From a virus: DNA of 64,000 bases. The notes under the pieces were generated by a model. It made no database searches, was not told where the DNA came from, and worked only from the letters and a program-made list of their open reading frames with translations. Made by a program: the position numbers and the translations under genes. Positions within the stretch are counted from its first letter, which is position 1. Every line of letters begins with the position of its first letter. Where the stretch lies: IMG/VR virus record IMGVR_UViG_3300042090_002370, positions 99,860 to 163,859 of that record; one strand, 5' to 3'. Positions 25,233 to 64,000 of this stretch are shown here, piece after piece.

Positions 25233-25275
25233 ATTGTACCGGTGGCGCAACCAGAAAGCCAGTAAAGGAATAAGA
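25233..25275. promoter_or_regulatory. Divergent promoter region
   Basis: On the minus strand, GGTACAAT (TACAAT at 25238-25233) lies 7 bp before the lipoprotein ATG, resembling an extended -10 box with a very short leader. On the plus strand, GGAATAAGA (25267-25275) precedes the small membrane protein at 25291. The plus element belongs to the GGNATAAGR set. Confidence 0.5.
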
Positions 25276-54742: not shown

Positions 54743-54751
54743 GGTATAAGA
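54743..54751 (+). promoter_or_regulatory. GGNATAAGR promoter-like motif
   Basis: GGTATAAGA lies 15 bp before ATG 54767 and is followed by ACCTCGGAGG, very similar to the leaders at 25275 (ACCCTGGAGG) and 63476 (ACCTTGAGG). Confidence 0.55.
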
Positions 54752-54766
54752 ACCTCGGAGGTTATC

Positions 54767-55174
54767 ATGTCTACAATTGATCTCAATTCATTGACGTTGG
54801 GGCAGCTGAAGGAAATCAAGGCACTGCTTGGCGTGCGGTCTTGTAAGGTCAAGGCTAAGCCAGCAAGCGGGTTCTGGACGGAGTCTTTCGAGGAGGAGGG
54901 CCCGGTCATCGTACGGAGTTACGGTGCCGGCGTTTTCTTCGGGTACCTATCCAAGAAGCGCGACAACGAAGTTCTACTTCTTCGGTGCAGGCGAATCTGG
55001 GTGTGGAAAGGCGCGAACACTTTGAGCGAGCTGGCGCGTCATGGCCTATTGCCGGAGGGGTCGAGAGTCTCAGAGCGCACTGCTAAGCATCGTGTGTTGG
55101 ACGTAATTGAGATTATCGACGTCACGCATGAAGCCATGAGGGTTTTGGAGTCCGCCGTGTGGAGCACAAAATGA
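54767..55174 (+). CDS. Small conserved phage protein, paralog of the 63516 gene
   Basis: The 135-residue protein begins STIDLNSLTLGQLKEIKALL. Like the gene at 63516 it has a 'D-L-T-x-x-Q-x-x-EI' start, an RS-K-K segment, and then VIVRSYGAGVFFGYL followed by strands and a W. Both are preceded by the same motif and followed by a hexanucleotide-repeat gene. The 63516 protein keeps the better-conserved family pattern (IVRTVT, TGRF, VGRGAI); this one is diverged. The function is unknown. Confidence 0.55.
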   Translation: MSTIDLNSLTLGQLKEIKALLGVRSCKVKAKPASGFWTESFEEEGPVIVRSYGAGVFFGYLSKKRDNEVLLLRCRRIWVWKGANTLSELARHGLLPEGSRVSERTAKHRVLDVIEIIDVTHEAMRVLESAVWSTK

Positions 55175-55428
55175 AACGCGGTCGCCGTGTTTTCGGATAC
55201 GGATACGGATACGGAGACGGAGGCGGATACGGAAGCGGAGACGGAAGCGGATACGGATACGGAAGCGGAAGCGGAAGCGGATACGGAGACGGAGGCGGAA
55301 GCGGAGGCGGAAGCGGAGGCGGAGACGGAGGCGGAGACGGAGGCGGAGGCGGATACGGATACGGAAGCGGAAGCGGAAGCGGATACGGAGACGGAAGCGG
55401 AGGCGGAAGCGGAGGCGGAAGCGCGTAA
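55171..55428 (+). CDS. Gly-Tyr/Ser/Asp repeat protein
   Basis: The protein has 85 residues from ATG 55171, overlapping the previous stop (ATGA, SD TGGAG). After a basic start (MKRGRRVF) the rest is 38 dipeptides Gly-X, with X = Tyr, Ser, Asp or Gly, encoded by hexamers GGA-TAC, GGA-AGC, GGA-GAC and GGA-GGC. It ends at a strong terminator. It may be a flexible or adhesive tail, or DNA-coating peptide; no function is established. Confidence 0.55.
   Translation: MKRGRRVFGYGYGYGDGGGYGSGDGSGYGYGSGSGSGYGDGGGSGGGSGGGDGGGDGGGGGYGYGSGSGSGYGDGSGGGSGGGSA
55195..55422 (+). repeat. 38 tandem hexanucleotides GGA(T/A/G)(A/G)C
   Basis: All 38 units keep GGA at the first and C at the sixth position; only positions 4 and 5 vary, among TA, AG, GA and GG. 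The array is uninterrupted and in frame. A long Pro-rich frame on the opposite strand is its mirror. Confidence 0.95.
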
Positions 55429-55430
55429 CT

Positions 55431-55460
55431 AAAAAAGGAGGGCCGCGGCCCTCCTTTTTT
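55431..55460. terminator. Bidirectional terminator
   Basis: AAAAAAGGAGGGCC and GGCCCTCCTTTTTT (55431-55444 and 55447-55460) form a perfect 14-bp stem around GC, with a T-run to 55461 and then AGCCGCGCAGCAT, a degenerate form of the TAGCTACGCAT motif. Confidence 0.88.
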
Positions 55461-55521
55461 TAGCCGCGCAGCATCTGTAGCGCGCTTCCGAGGGCAAGCA
55501 CCCAGATGGTACGCTGCGTAT

Positions 55522-57413: not shown

Positions 57414-58113
57414 CCAGAAGACTGCAGAGGCCGAGCTCGAGTTCTTCTTTCTCAAGATTGCCGAGACCAACGTAGGACAGTGGTGGGAGAACGTTGGTGG
57501 TCCGCATCTAGCGAAAGGAGGGAGCCACGACGACTTCAAGAAGATGATGGACAAGGAGAAGCTACCTGAGCACATCAAAAAGAAGTTCATGGATGTCGCA
57601 AAGAAGAAGTATCCGCCTGGCCACAACATGGGGGAAGGAGCGAAGTGGGATGCTGCTCGGCAGAGGGGTGGTGTGGGAACGCGGCCATCTTGGGCGCACG
57701 CAGGACCACCTCGTTCCGGATTCATGGGGCATCTCGAGCGGCATCCGCATCTAGCTGGTGTTGGCGTCGCTGCCGGTCTAGTCGGTGCCGGCTACTTGGC
57801 AGATAAGTACAACATGCACAAAGCGGAAAAGAAAAAGAGCGAAGCGGCTAAGCAAACGCAGAAGGCGGCTGCATCAGTTGATGACGTAACATTACTGTCT
57901 TTTCTTGATGAGCTCGAGAACATCAAGGCAGCAGGACTGCTCGACTCAGTCAAAAAGGTTCTCACTACGCCCATCCCAGGAACGCCGGAGATTATGCCTG
58001 GTGTGACACATGCCGCTGAGAAGTTGAAGGGCCTCTCAGGCAACGTCAGCAAGCAGGGGCCTAGTAAGGCCTACGAGAAGTTCGTGGCACAGCGCGCTGC
58101 TGCAGGGCGCTGA
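57388..58113 (+). CDS. Putative virion protein with motif and TPIPGTPE segment
   Basis: The protein has 241 residues, with ATG 57388 chosen for SD AGAAGGAGAAGG. It has ELEFFFLKIAETNVGQW near the start and LLSFLDELENIKAAGLL near residue 185 (two motif copies). A glycine-zipper helix (GVGVAAGLVGAGYLADKYN) precedes a coil, and VKKVLTTPIPGTPEIMPG lies near residue 205. The last segment recurs in the 62157 gene. It may be ejected or internal; the function is unknown. Confidence 0.52.
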   Translation: MRYKTPGDDQKTAEAELEFFFLKIAETNVGQWWENVGGPHLAKGGSHDDFKKMMDKEKLPEHIKKKFMDVAKKKYPPGHNMGEGAKWDAARQRGGVGTRPSWAHAGPPRSGFMGHLERHPHLAGVGVAAGLVGAGYLADKYNMHKAEKKKSEAAKQTQKAAASVDDVTLLSFLDELENIKAAGLLDSVKKVLTTPIPGTPEIMPGVTHAAEKLKGLSGNVSKQGPSKAYEKFVAQRAAAGR

Positions 58114-60275
58114 TGCGCACGTGGTGTACAACGGCCTTTGTCGATGAGCTCGAAAAGATCGCGCTCGTGTCGACGCCTCTACTGCCTCACCAGCAGCGTG
58201 TGGTGGACCGTCTGCAGCAGAAGGACCAGCCTGGCCTGGTCGCCATTCACGGTCTGGGTTCTGGCAAGACACTCACCTCCATTGCAGCGCAGGAGGCTCT
58301 TGGTATGCCCTCTCAGGTGGTGGCGCCAGCGTCACTCCTCGGCAACTACCGGAAGGAGCGAGCGAAGCATCTCGAGGGCGAGTCGCAGAAGGCCTCGCTC
58401 ACTTCAATGCAGAACATGGCGACCAAGGGCAAGTCGCCGGATGCCCCAATGCTCATCGTCGACGAAGCGCATCGAGCACGAGACCCATCGACAGCTACCT
58501 TTCAGACCCTCAAGGGCAACACGTCACAGAAGCGTTTACTCCTTAGTGGCAGCCCATTCTACAACCACCCGTCAGACATCGCGCCACTCATCGATCTCGC
58601 CGCCGACGCGAAGGTCCTGCCCTACGATAAGGACGAGTTCACCCGCCGGTACATCACAGAGAAGGTGGTGAAGCCTGAGATGTGGCAGCGCGTGGCGAAC
58701 ATCTTCAGAAGTCCAGAGAACAAAGTGCAGCCCGGCGTGGTGCCGATGCTCTATCAGAAGAAGGCCCCAGAACTGCGTGATGCCTTCGCCAAGTGGGTGG
58801 ACTACCACCCTGGTAGTACGGAGAACTTCCCTGAAGTCACGCACGAGAACGTAGAAGTTCCGATGTCTAAGGAGCAGCTCAAGGTCTACGACACCTTGAT
58901 GGACAAGGCTCCGGCATGGGTCGCCGCCAAAGTGAAACGCGGCCTACCTCCCAACAAGCGCGAGGCGCAGCAGCTCAACTCCTTCCTCACAGCTTCTCGA
59001 CAGGCCGCCAACAGCACCTCCCCGTTCATCGAGGAAGGGCGCACTCCGGAGGAGCCGAAGATCCAGGCGGCGTTCGAACGCATGCAGAAGACGCTGGGTG
59101 AGAACCCGCGGTCCAAGGGTGTCGTCTACTCGAACTACCTCAGCGCGGGCATCGATCCCTACAAGCGGCGTCTCCAGGAGGCAGGCATCCCCTTCGGCGA
59201 ATTCACCGGAGAGCTCCCCGCCAAGAAGCGCGACCAGCTGGTCAAGGATTATAACGAGAACAGAATTCGCGCGCTGCTGCTCTCCTCCGCCGGCGGTGAG
59301 GGCCTAGACCTCAAGGGTACGCGACTCATGCAGGTGCTCGACCCGCACTGGAACCAGGAGAAGCTGAAGCAGGTAGAGGGTCGCGGTGCGCGGTACATGA
59401 GCCACGCCGATCTGCCGCCCGAGGAACGCAACGTGCGCGTGGAGAACTATCTGTCGACGCGGCCTCAGGGTCTCCTCAGCAGGGGCATGAATGCACTCAC
59501 CGGTAGGAAGCCGGATCAGTCCGTCGACCAGTACCTTTCGCAGATGTCTAAGGGCAAAGAGGACCTCATCAACCAGTTCCGCGAGCTCCTGCCGCAGGAG
59601 CAGCCGCCTGCCAAGACCGCCGCGACCAGGCTTCCGACGACAGAGGAGTCCCGTGCGCTCGCGAGTTCATGGAAGCCTCGACTGGCTGCGGAGGCTGCCT
59701 TCACGTTGCCGATGGCGACGAACACTGCGGCCCTGGGCTCGCTCATCGGTCCGAAGTGGGCGCTCATCGGCGCTGGTCTAGGCGGCCTATTGGGGCATAC
59801 CGTCTCGAACATTGAGCTGTCTAACATGGTCTCACACGGTAAGCGAATGGCGCGGGAAGCGGCGAGGAAGCCTACCAAGGAGAACGCGTTGCGGGAGTCG
59901 GCGGACGGGCTGGATTGGGGCGAGGTCGCACGGTCGTCGGTGGGGCACGCGTTACCTATCGCGCTACCGGCGATGTTCCATGGAGGACAAACCCACTACG
60001 CGCTCACGGACAACCTGATGGGCGCCTCTATCGCGACCGGCGCGCTCGGAGCCATCGGTTCTGGCTACCTCGACAAGTACCGACGGCAGATTGCTATCAA
60101 CGAGCTCGAGAATGCACGTCAGGAAGTGGGGACAGCGGATGCCGCTAGGCTTCAACGCCTTCGTAGGCAGGTTGCCAACTTAGAGGACCAGGTCGAAGGG
60201 GGTTGGAACAAGACCGCACCTGAAGACAGGACGACGCAAACTAAGCAGAAGGACAAGAGCGGAAAGGACTGGTAG
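58113..60275 (+). CDS. SF2 (SNF2-like) helicase with N-terminal motif and hydrophobic C-terminal region
   Basis: The protein has 720 residues and overlaps the previous stop. The N-terminus is TTAFVDELEKIALVSTPLLP (short motif). The helicase core follows: Walker A HGLGSGKT (46-53), DEAH box LIVDEAH (114-120), motif III SGSPFY (145-150), motif V SSAGGEGLDLKG (about 400) and motif VI QVEGRGARYMSH (about 430). After residue 520 come Gly/Ala-rich hydrophobic segments (GPKWALIGAGLGGLLGHTVS, GASIATGALGAIGSGYL). All ATPase motifs look intact. The set suggests a helicase carried in the virion, or acting at the membrane during DNA entry. Confidence 0.8.
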   Translation: MRTWCTTAFVDELEKIALVSTPLLPHQQRVVDRLQQKDQPGLVAIHGLGSGKTLTSIAAQEALGMPSQVVAPASLLGNYRKERAKHLEGESQKASLTSMQNMATKGKSPDAPMLIVDEAHRARDPSTATFQTLKGNTSQKRLLLSGSPFYNHPSDIAPLIDLAADAKVLPYDKDEFTRRYITEKVVKPEMWQRVANIFRSPENKVQPGVVPMLYQKKAPELRDAFAKWVDYHPGSTENFPEVTHENVEVPMSKEQLKVYDTLMDKAPAWVAAKVKRGLPPNKREAQQLNSFLTASRQAANSTSPFIEEGRTPEEPKIQAAFERMQKTLGENPRSKGVVYSNYLSAGIDPYKRRLQEAGIPFGEFTGELPAKKRDQLVKDYNENRIRALLLSSAGGEGLDLKGTRLMQVLDPHWNQEKLKQVEGRGARYMSHADLPPEERNVRVENYLSTRPQGLLSRGMNALTGRKPDQSVDQYLSQMSKGKEDLINQFRELLPQEQPPAKTAATRLPTTEESRALASSWKPRLAAEAAFTLPMATNTAALGSLIGPKWALIGAGLGGLLGHTVSNIELSNMVSHGKRMAREAARKPTKENALRESADGLDWGEVARSSVGHALPIALPAMFHGGQTHYALTDNLMGASIATGALGAIGSGYLDKYRRQIAINELENARQEVGTADAARLQRLRRQVANLEDQVEGGWNKTAPEDRTTQTKQKDKSGKDW

Positions 60276-60832: not shown

Positions 60833-60893
60833 CTCACGCCACAAACTTTTGTGAAACTGTTCACACCGTAAACAACCCCGCCCTAAAGGGCGG
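60797..60893 (-). repeat. Duplicated right-end (omega RNA 3' end) sequence
   Basis: Two direct copies of about 35 bp read on the plus strand as GTAAACxACCxCCGCC ... GGCGGAGxCTTTGT: copy A 60797-60830 and copy B 60868-60900. Both contain a stem with a four-base loop, and on the minus strand both end at GTTTAC. Sequence beyond GTTTAC differs completely between the copies, as expected for guide regions. Confidence 0.7.
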
Positions 60894-62091
60894 AGCTTTG
60901 TGATTGAGCTTTTGAGACTCGAACCACTTTCCTGCTTCGACGAGGTGCCCTAAGGCGGCAAGAACTCTCCACAGGCTGAACCGATGGTTTCCAACGGCTT
61001 TTCAAAATCTTCGAGGCATTAATGTCGGCATGTTCCCGGTAACCGCAATGGACGCAGCAAAATACCTCTCCCTTGCGGGAAGCGGCGTCGATGCACCCAC
61101 AAGCCGAGCATGTTTGAGACGAGTAGGCGGGGTGGACTTCCGCCAACTGACCGCCCTCCCGCGTGAGCTTGTACTTGAGGAACTTGGCGAGCATTCCCCA
61201 ACCTTGGTCGAGGATACCTCGCGCAAGCCCCCGATTAGCCTTCACCATGTTGCCGATCTGGAGATTCTCGATCACGACGGTGCCGTGGCTCTTGGCGTAG
61301 TCGTGACTGAGCTGGTGACAGAAATGCTCCCGTTGCCTACGGACCTTCCGGTGAAGGTTGGCGCAGCGGAGCTTCGCTTTCTCTCGGTTTTGGGATCCTT
61401 TCTTCCTCCTAGAGACAGTACGTTGAGCACGCGCAAGCCTCTTGAGAGCCTTGCTGTAGAAGCGGGGGGATGGGACAAGCTTGCCGTCCGAGTCCGCGAT
61501 CACGTTCGTAACGCCTCGGTCGATAGCGACGATGGGCCCGACCTTTGGAGTCGGGTCGGCAACTTCAACCTCGCAGACAATCGAGGCGAACCACTGATCG
61601 CCGTCTCGCTTGAGGGTGCAAGTCTTGGGTCTGCCTTCGATGGGTCTGTGGATAACGGCTCTGAGGTTGCCGAGTTTGGGGAACCTCAAGAGGTTGCCGT
61701 CCAACCGCCAAGCTTTGGGATGTGGCTCGGTCAAGCCAAGGAAGTCTCGTCCTCGCTTCTTCCACCTAGGAGCCCGAGCCACCCGCTTGAAACAGCGTTG
61801 CCAAGCCTTGTCCAACTCGACGAGGAGCTGGGCACACACGTTTCGAGGAACATCGGCGAGCCAAGGAAGCTCTCTGCGAAGTTCGGTCAGTTCGTTGATC
61901 TGATCGAATGCGGACTGGAAGATTCTCTCGTCCCTAGGACGTGCAAGTCCCATCTGCCGCTGTTCAAGAGCAAGGTTCCAGAGGCACCGGAGAGCACTCT
62001 CCCACTGCCCGAACCGATCGACTTGAGCTTCGGTCGGGTAGACGCGATAGCGGAACGCCTTGCTCGTGACCACGGTACTACCATAGTACAT
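60883..62091 (-). CDS. tnpB: TnpB RNA-guided nuclease
   Basis: The 402-residue protein has a usual TnpB length. RuvC residues are Asp191 (GPIVAIDRGVTN), Glu275 (TVVIENLQIGNM) and Asp356 (YREHADINASKI). Zinc ligands CSAC (328-331) and CVHC (346-349) lie between the last two. The N-terminus (AFRYRVYPTEAQVDRFGQWE) matches the family start. All catalytic residues are intact, so it may be an active nuclease guided by an omega RNA encoded at its own 3' end (right end at 60868-60893). It has no tnpA partner here. Confidence 0.92.
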   Translation of the reverse strand: MYYGSTVVTSKAFRYRVYPTEAQVDRFGQWESALRCLWNLALEQRQMGLARPRDERIFQSAFDQINELTELRRELPWLADVPRNVCAQLLVELDKAWQRCFKRVARAPRWKKRGRDFLGLTEPHPKAWRLDGNLLRFPKLGNLRAVIHRPIEGRPKTCTLKRDGDQWFASIVCEVEVADPTPKVGPIVAIDRGVTNVIADSDGKLVPSPRFYSKALKRLARAQRTVSRRKKGSQNREKAKLRCANLHRKVRRQREHFCHQLSHDYAKSHGTVVIENLQIGNMVKANRGLARGILDQGWGMLAKFLKYKLTREGGQLAEVHPAYSSQTCSACGCIDAASRKGEVFCCVHCGYREHADINASKILKSRWKPSVQPVESSCRLRAPRRSRKVVRVSKAQSQSSAL

Positions 62092-63467: not shown

Positions 63468-63476
63468 GGGATAAGA
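63468..63476 (+). promoter_or_regulatory. GGNATAAGR promoter-like motif
   Basis: GGGATAAGA followed by ACCTTGAGGAG, 40 bp before ATG 63516. It matches the leader of the paralogous gene at 54767. Confidence 0.55.
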
Positions 63477-63515: not shown

Positions 63516-63875
63516 ATGGAATTCAACATCGAAGACCTCACCATCAAGCAGATATGGGAGATCTCGCGCCTGGCCGGCTGCCGCGTGCGATCCAAGAAGA
63601 AGCCTCTCGTCGAGCTGCCCTTCAAGGCAGGCGACGCCATCATCGTCCGCACCGTGACGCTCATCGATCTCGGTAGGGTCGTGGCCATCGGCAGCGACTT
63701 CATCACCCTCACCGACGGGGGCTGGGTGGCCAGCACGGGGCGCTTTGGCGAAATGTTGAAGACGGGCAAGATCAACGAGTTCGAGAGGATCGATCTCCCT
63801 TGGTTCCTCGTTGGTCGCGGAGCGATCTGCGACCTGGCGCCGTGGCCTTTCGACATCCCCAAGGTCACGCTGTGA
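63516..63875 (+). CDS. Small conserved phage protein (paralog of the 54767 gene)
   Basis: The protein has 119 residues from ATG 63516 (SD AGAGGAG). It begins EFNIEDLTIKQIWEISRLAG and contains AGDAIIVRTVTLIDLGRVVA, WVASTGRFGEMLKTGKINEF, FLVGRGAICDLAPW and an IPKVTL end. Small phage proteins with this pattern (RTVT...GR, A-TGRF, VGRGAI-D--W) are familiar but have no known function. It overlaps the next start by GTGA. Confidence 0.62.
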   Translation: MEFNIEDLTIKQIWEISRLAGCRVRSKKKPLVELPFKAGDAIIVRTVTLIDLGRVVAIGSDFITLTDGGWVASTGRFGEMLKTGKINEFERIDLPWFLVGRGAICDLAPWPFDIPKVTL

Positions 63876-64000
63876 ACGCCGCGATGTTGGGCGCGGCCGC
63901 ATGGGGCGGTGGGTCGTGGTCGGGGTCGTGGTCGCGGTCGGGGTCGCGGTCGTGGTCGCGGTCGGGGTCGCGGTCGTGGTCGCGGTCGGGGTCGCGGTCG
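63872..64000 (+). CDS. Ser/Trp/Arg/Gly dipeptide-repeat protein (partial, runs off the window)
   Basis: The frame opens at GTG 63872 inside the previous stop and continues past the window end. After MNAAMLGAAAWGG the protein is a run of (Gly/Trp/Arg)-Ser dipeptides encoded by NGG-TCG hexamers. It stands in the same place relative to its small conserved neighbour as the Gly-X repeat gene at 55171. Confidence 0.45.
   Translation, partial: MNAAMLGAAAWGGGSWSGSWSRSGSRSWSRSGSRSWSRSGSRS
63911..64000 (+). repeat. At least 15 tandem hexanucleotides (G/T/C)GGTCG
   Basis: Units of NGGTCG with N = G, T or C follow one another without a break to the window edge. From the fourth unit on the order is TCGC, a 24-bp super-period. 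The array continues beyond the window. Confidence 0.92.

Follow-up and report, generated by a model that had tools for sequence, protein, structure and literature searches.

A recurrent two-gene module of bacterial viruses: small proteins with a predicted Sm/LSm-like fold and overlapping dipeptide-repeat genes

Background

The barrel topology of Sm/LSm proteins (archaeal SmAP, Lsm1-7, Hfq) is predicted here for two families of small phage proteins, which differ from the known members by a helix between strands 3 and 4 and by their conserved residues. In LSM14/Scd6, Edc3 and Ataxin-2, proteins of RNA granules, an LSm barrel is likewise combined with low-complexity sequence, and the disordered tail lies in the same chain as the LSm domain, whereas in the phage version the low-complexity part is encoded by a separate overlapping gene and consists of strict dipeptide repeats. 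In composition the phage chains, (Gly-Tyr/Ser)n and (Arg/Trp-Ser)n, are similar to the FUS-type [G/S]Y[G/S] and SR-type domains, which are eukaryotic, are parts of larger proteins and are not strict hexanucleotide repeats. The Sm/LSm-like protein of PDB entry 3by7 (uncultured source), of putative cyanophage origin, has an Sm-like barrel that is matched with a VIA Z of 6.5 (rmsd 2.9 over 69 residues), but with 14% identity; it is not known to have a repeat partner.

Low-complexity repeats of phages are easily dismissed as artefacts, and contigs often break there. In the case described here they make up a regular class of genes with a near-constant partner of predicted LSm-like fold. One of the two small genes belongs to the Pfam family DUF6948 (PF22253), to which the present analysis adds the overlapping repeat gene, a second family and the predicted LSm-like fold; the module gives a direct handle on this domain of unknown function. 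No paper on DUF6948 was found in the literature searched, whose coverage excluded most subscription papers and bioRxiv preprints. Titles and opening lines of abstracts on phage hexanucleotide or dipeptide repeats and on phage Sm-like or condensate proteins contained no description of this pair; it goes unmentioned in the parts consulted of a paper on low-complexity regions of prokaryotes and phages (PMC6821194) and of one on short tandem repeats (PMC12699852), while the part consulted of PMC13193609 deals with Hfq condensation driven by polyphosphate.

Results and discussion

Layout of the two modules

The window (the whole stretch of DNA analysed, 64,000 bases) is the final part of a 163,859-base virus record, and its end is the end of the record. 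It contains two modules (Table 1), whose motifs and small genes lie where an earlier note on this sequence had placed them. As that note had also read, the partner starts overlap the small-gene stops, each start codon sitting within the stop (ATGA at 55171, GTGA at 63872), and both arrays are perfect, (GGANNC)38 and (NGGTCG)15. Elsewhere in the window the next best places listed for either hexamer comprise one unit. The second copy is cut inside its array by the record end, and its 15 units are the visible portion. Neither Rfam families nor tRNAs were found within the window.

Table 1. Coordinates of the features of the two modules in the window
Feature	Position	Strand	Remarks
GGTATAAGA promoter-like motif	54743..54751	+	phage-wide signal, not module-specific
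Small gene 1	54767..55174	+	135 aa; N-terminal helix and DUF6948 core, predicted Sm/LSm-like fold
Partner gene 1	55171..55428	+	85 aa; MKRGRRVF-(Gly-X)38-A, X = S/Y/D/G; ATGA overlap with the stop of small gene 1
Perfect in-frame array of 38 GGANNC hexamers	55195..55422	+	
Terminator-like hairpin with A-run and T-run, closing module 1	55429..55463	.	RNA fold -22.7 kcal/mol, z -3.72
GGGATAAGA promoter-like motif	63468..63476	+	
Small gene 2	63516..63875	+	119 aa; N-terminal helix of the same kind as in small gene 1, second family, predicted Sm/LSm-like fold, no Pfam family
Partner gene 2	63872..64000	+	MNAAMLGAAAWGGGS-(X-Ser)n, X = W/R/G; GTGA overlap with the stop of small gene 2; truncated by the record end
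Perfect array of 15 NGGTCG hexamers	63911..64000	+	runs to the record end

The motif GGNATAAGA occurs at 7 sites in the window (18609, 25267, 42902-, 43402-, 43908-, 54743 and 63468, the minus sign marking the minus strand, so that both strands are used) against 0.64 in shuffles, and at 16 sites in the whole record, for which a first-order Markov model predicts about 2.1. Since most of these 16 sites precede unrelated genes, GGNATAAGA is a general promoter-like signal of this phage and not, as the earlier note had it, a component of the cassette. A CAA-rich box is found ~20 bases upstream of it, and a start with a ribosome-site-like stretch follows within 60 bases at 14 of the 16 sites (by a loose rule). 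The leaders behind the motif, earlier described as near-identical, do share ATAAGAACCT in both modules, but overall they are merely similar, and ATAAGAACCC is present at 25267 without a repeat gene. The hairpin at the end of module 1 was not listed by the built-in consensus terminator scan. A terminator as a general feature of the module was rejected, although this copy has one: after the partner it was found in 4/119 and 0/49 cases, compared with 15/603 in the control.

Two families of small proteins

Small gene 1 belongs to DUF6948 with 86.1 bits (E-value 1.9e-24), above the curated cut-off of 27 bits, which 7 of 10 diverse relatives scanned also exceed. For small gene 2 no Pfam family was found at E 1, and none of 62 family-2 members matches DUF6948 at E 0.1. 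That the two small genes are of the same family, as the earlier note proposed, has weak support in a pairwise comparison (BLASTP, 27 aa, E-value 0.008) but is supported from profile to profile: the alignment of family 1 (99 relatives) with family 2 (62 relatives) reached a probability of 97.1 (E-value 7.8e-11) over the N-terminal helix and the first strands. The N-terminal segment comes in two types, shared by both families: a helix of the DLTIGEAKELAAMF type and a segment of the TIxIDDVxYVRADS type. The small proteins form one superfamily with two families. The duplication seen in the window is not a recent one, each half belonging to its own widespread family, and a simple duplication is not supported as the origin of the cassette. 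Conserved residues of the small proteins comprise RTYSAGV, R76, W80 and E115. Protein searches of viral contigs for close relatives of each window protein found none, NCBIfam gave no name for the proteins searched, and a sequence search of the PDB returned no convincing match.

The single-chain AlphaFold2 models have pLDDT values of 89.5 (small gene 1) and 91.5 (small gene 2). Nearly all of the best 50 Foldseek rows against the PDB for each protein are Sm/LSm chains (best E-value 9.0e-3 for small protein 1, to archaeal Sm1; 6.5e-3 for small protein 2, to Edc3), with LSM14 and Edc3 among the best for family 2. The top VIA rows are likewise nearly all Sm/LSm, and the maximum score was Z 8.9 for small protein 2 (rmsd 2.2 over 69 residues) and Z 7.1 for small protein 1 (rmsd 3.3 over 78). 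The latter falls below 8, and scores under that level carry the tool's warning that the arrangement may be a common one. BFVD searches led to DUF6948 proteins; phage entries bearing the name "Sm-like domain" were matched weakly. Curated LSm sequence models did not match the window proteins, and two of 10 relatives scanned gave one sub-threshold match each (LSM14, E-value 0.019; SM-ATX, E-value 0.034). Both small proteins are predicted from these models to have an Sm/LSm-like barrel; the E-values and Z-scores are moderate, and the strongest point is that two families lead to one fold. The residues by which the Sm1/Sm2 RNA sites are defined are not those conserved in the small proteins, which gives no support to RNA binding in the usual pocket.

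Association with dipeptide-repeat genes

A scan of viral contigs for eight-unit GGANNC arrays returned at least 120 stretches, many of which hold a Gly-X gene directly 3' of a DUF6948 relative. To avoid the bias of a repeat scan, relatives were then gathered by protein, independently of repeats, using tblastn against named phages (16 records matched family 1 and one matched family 2), profile scans of viral contigs (85 relatives at 79 loci for family 2; the best 80 of 590 relatives, 600 stretches, for family 1; the best 80 of 353 relatives for the WGTTKGLGEL subfamily of family 1) and a profile scan of bacterial and archaeal genomes (60 loci); some members for queries A2 and A4 had originally been discovered via repeats. 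The relatives of the small genes in viral contigs number in the hundreds. A repeat was present in all 8 of the named-phage places examined (of 17); in L136 it lies upstream, and in L134 it forms a short part of a longer protein.

Homologues of the small gene that did not normally have a repeat gene behind them would speak against the cassette of a small gene and a variable low-complexity partner suggested by the earlier note. Where at least 60 bases were available downstream, and with a period-two alternation of Gly or Ser taken as the mark of a partner, one followed the small gene in 135/144 cases for family 1, 78/79 for the WGTTKGLGEL subfamily and 75/82 for family 2, compared with 13/908 among the remaining gene ends of these loci. 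Once identical small proteins had been removed, the figures became 108/117, 68/69 and 63/70, respectively. Eight of the 13 control positives were examined, and at least four of them (L205, L206, L289, L170) proved to be additional repeat genes, not chance hits. That the pairing is widespread, and not local to this phage, is well supported by these comparisons of sequences.

In family 2 the array was called in the Ser frame for 65 and in another frame for 11 of 83 genes scored (the window's included), while the Ser frame alone, with a looser cut, gave a Ser-alternating partner for 79 of 84 genes. Seven family-2 genes fell below the cut. On inspection by eye, five of these are still followed by the usual leader or by a Trp-Ser stretch, in a short or decayed version, which L161 and L337 lack; no recognisable repeat partner was found at L337 or at the family-1 loci L330 and L346. 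Of 79 family-2 contigs, 18 stop no more than 250 bases past the small gene, which partly explains the rarity of whole repeat genes. A full-length family-1 gene co-occurs in 3 of 50 family-2 records. In L037, L058 and L136 the repeat gene lies upstream of the small gene; the order is reversed and the pairing retained, so the association outlives rearrangement.

The repeat partner

Every one of the 171 family-1 partners scored belongs to the Gly type, (Gly-X)n with X = Ser, Tyr, Asp or Asn. Family-2 partners are (X-Ser)n chains in which X is Arg (0.34), Gly (0.32) or Trp (0.26); to judge from the sequences, each family of small proteins has its own repeat class. By residue counts the partners have the low-complexity character of phase-separating proteins, with aromatic residues spaced by Gly/Ser. 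Such strict two-residue repeats, whose mean net charge is acidic (-8.3) or basic (+10.3) according to family, and their rapid turnover, as in arms races, would be compatible with a decoy or blocker acting at the protein level, the slippery low-complexity chain either stalling proteases of the host or engaging one of its defence proteins, and the small protein serving as adaptor. However, the repeat classes are chemically opposite and their adaptors homologous, which makes a single target unlikely, and none of 5 proteins matched a PADLOC family at E 0.1, a weak argument since the PADLOC library comprises defence and not counter-defence systems. We regard this explanation as conceivable but unlikely.

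The hexamers vary while the residues are kept. There are 29 consensus hexamers in 138 family-1 arrays and 9 in family 2; Ser in family 1 is encoded by TCN in 81 arrays, by AGY in 23 and by both in 3, and Gly is encoded mainly by GGA in 29 of 142 arrays. The similarity of frame-0 composition across arrays follows in part from the Gly/Ser criterion itself, and the codon-class test used the X residues only: Ser, Tyr, Asp and Asn together account for 80-95% of X in the five codon classes (Gly codon plus third base) with at least 6 arrays, compared with 31% for random NNY, and for 60% in one class of two arrays. Repeat frames translated in no relative were the other finding that, according to the earlier note, would refute its cassette; the codon switches with residues kept, and the synonymous variation of the leader (see below), are the behaviour of translated peptides under selection, and the cassette stands on this and on the near-constant pairing. 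It is well supported by codon usage that selection acts on the repeat peptide and that the repeat frames are translated. A programmed frameshift into the repeat was rejected, as some partners start in the +1 frame of the small gene and others in the +2 frame (offsets -16, -12 and -3), and no single shift fits.

The same codon data bear on the possibility that the array acts as DNA or RNA, its hexamers being bound by the LSm-like protein, a CsrA-type regulator or a recombinase and its reading frame being incidental. The perfection of the hexamer arrays is in line with it, as is the resemblance of GGANNC to repeated CsrA sites (the CsrA motif being ANGGA), together with CsrA-family genes shortly downstream of the repeat genes of L016 (4843-5055, minus strand) and L020 (8388-8582, plus strand). 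Recombination genes are also frequent among the named neighbours: in the flanking proteins scanned (100 of 174 candidates for family 1 and 79 of 112 for family 2, mostly on the module strand), the named PHROGs of the nearest neighbours, among the matches listed, are mostly ssDNA-annealing proteins, nucleases, helicases, polymerases and terminases, each in few members. Against a role as nucleic acid stand the constancy of the peptide across so many hexamer types and Gly codons, the synonymous variation of leader codons and the unstructured array RNA, and we consider it rather improbable. The narrower idea that GGANNC arrays are CsrA decoys or sponge RNAs was dropped: most relatives use GGC, GGT or GGG, and GGA in hairpins is not indicated, the RNA of the window array having no more structure than its shuffles (z -0.38).

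The repeats are preceded by leaders, of the form M[SP]KLNKP or short ME/MD/MG forms in family 1 and MNAA(I/V)LRTGFD in family 2, the latter kept with varied synonymous codons. In the alignable family-2 leaders (47 of 66, by a simple rule) Gly 9 is present in 46/47, with all 4 codons used, and Arg 7 in 43/47, with all 6 codons used. Its conservation is not explained by overlap, since at the offset seen most often the leader shares just four bases with the small gene. A conserved leader followed by a variable core, in overlapping genes, is reminiscent of a toxin-antitoxin or maturation pair, in which the leader and repeat would form a toxic or modified peptide that the small protein neutralises or processes, and the Trp/Arg-rich class is akin to membrane-active peptides; the Gly-Ser-Tyr-Asp class, however, is not of a membrane-active type, and no constant modifying enzyme was seen among the neighbours, which leaves this reading with little probability.

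Repeat number among close relatives, a comparison suggested by the earlier note, was followed in Neisseria-type prophages (named loci L305, N. sicca, and L306, N. gonorrhoeae). In 150 pairs whose small genes are at least 99% identical, the partners are identical in 6, and in 150/150 their lengths differ by even numbers of residues (zero included), i.e. by whole hexamers. Strong rearrangement of arrays was seen elsewhere (L220/L221, L244/L247). Repeat number changes by whole hexamers, preserving the frame. That the repeats are a microsatellite by-product, built by slippage after the gene and merely tolerated, would agree with arrays that change by whole units and reshuffle, but is highly improbable in view of the near-universal pairing, the family-specific residue classes, the conserved leader, the codon switches and the pairing retained in reversed order.

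A possible function of the module

The pairing is so consistent that the small protein and its repeat partner probably act together. The two genes form a conserved phage module, present in many unrelated bacterial viruses; the second gene almost always overlaps the first or sits immediately behind it, and within a constant residue class its hexamer, order and repeat number change rapidly. With a probability that we put at roughly one half, the module provides a split RNP-like unit, with the LSm-fold protein and the low-complexity polypeptide supplied in trans. The ssDNA-annealing proteins, helicases and polymerases often found among the named flanking genes are in line with this reading. In the window the module is preceded by large genes that have neither PHROG nor Pfam names, so that a setting in a replication region is unsupported there. 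Translation of the second gene would be coupled to that of the first. The LSm-like barrel may hold the conserved leader, or an RNA, and the disordered tail may provide many weak contacts, through Tyr/Asp in one class and Trp/Arg in the other. Such a split version of the LSm-plus-disordered-tail RNA proteins could serve as a multivalent RNP or ssDNA hub during infection, and the length of the repeat could be tuned via gain or loss of whole hexamers with the frame kept. As a more specific and tentative version, we speculate that phages of many bacterial groups carry a split ribonucleoprotein in which a dipeptide-repeat chain docks by its leader on an LSm-like scaffold and a condensate forms around phage transcripts or ssDNA, with its strength set by the hexamer copy number and with two homologous versions of opposite chemistry (Tyr/Asp and Trp/Arg). 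If the two proteins act together, they would represent a natural two-component design, a folded scaffold and a tunable disordered chain, with copy-number variants supplied by nature.

Other repeat genes and neighbouring genes

Several loci show further arrangements of repeat genes. Tandem copies beside one small gene are found in L205-L207 and L058. In L134, L327, L334 and L347 the Gly-X stretch is not a free chain but is embedded near the start of a protein of 170-250 aa, and these larger proteins have no Pfam family above the cut-off. In L289 (1735-2146) a gene that by eye is SmpB-like is followed by a Gly-X repeat gene.

In the window, a TnpB-type OrfB_IS605 gene with a Cas12f1-like TNB domain (60886-62091, minus strand) lies between a SNF2-type helicase gene (58113-60275) and module 2. 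L003 contains another repeat-bearing pair of this phage, the tandem paralogues at 1390-2073 and 2079-2816, whose ends are long, GCG-rich and Ala-rich low-complexity stretches, and in the same phage record a gene of the Pectinacetylesterase family (PF03283, E-value 5.7e-25) occupies positions 263-1243.
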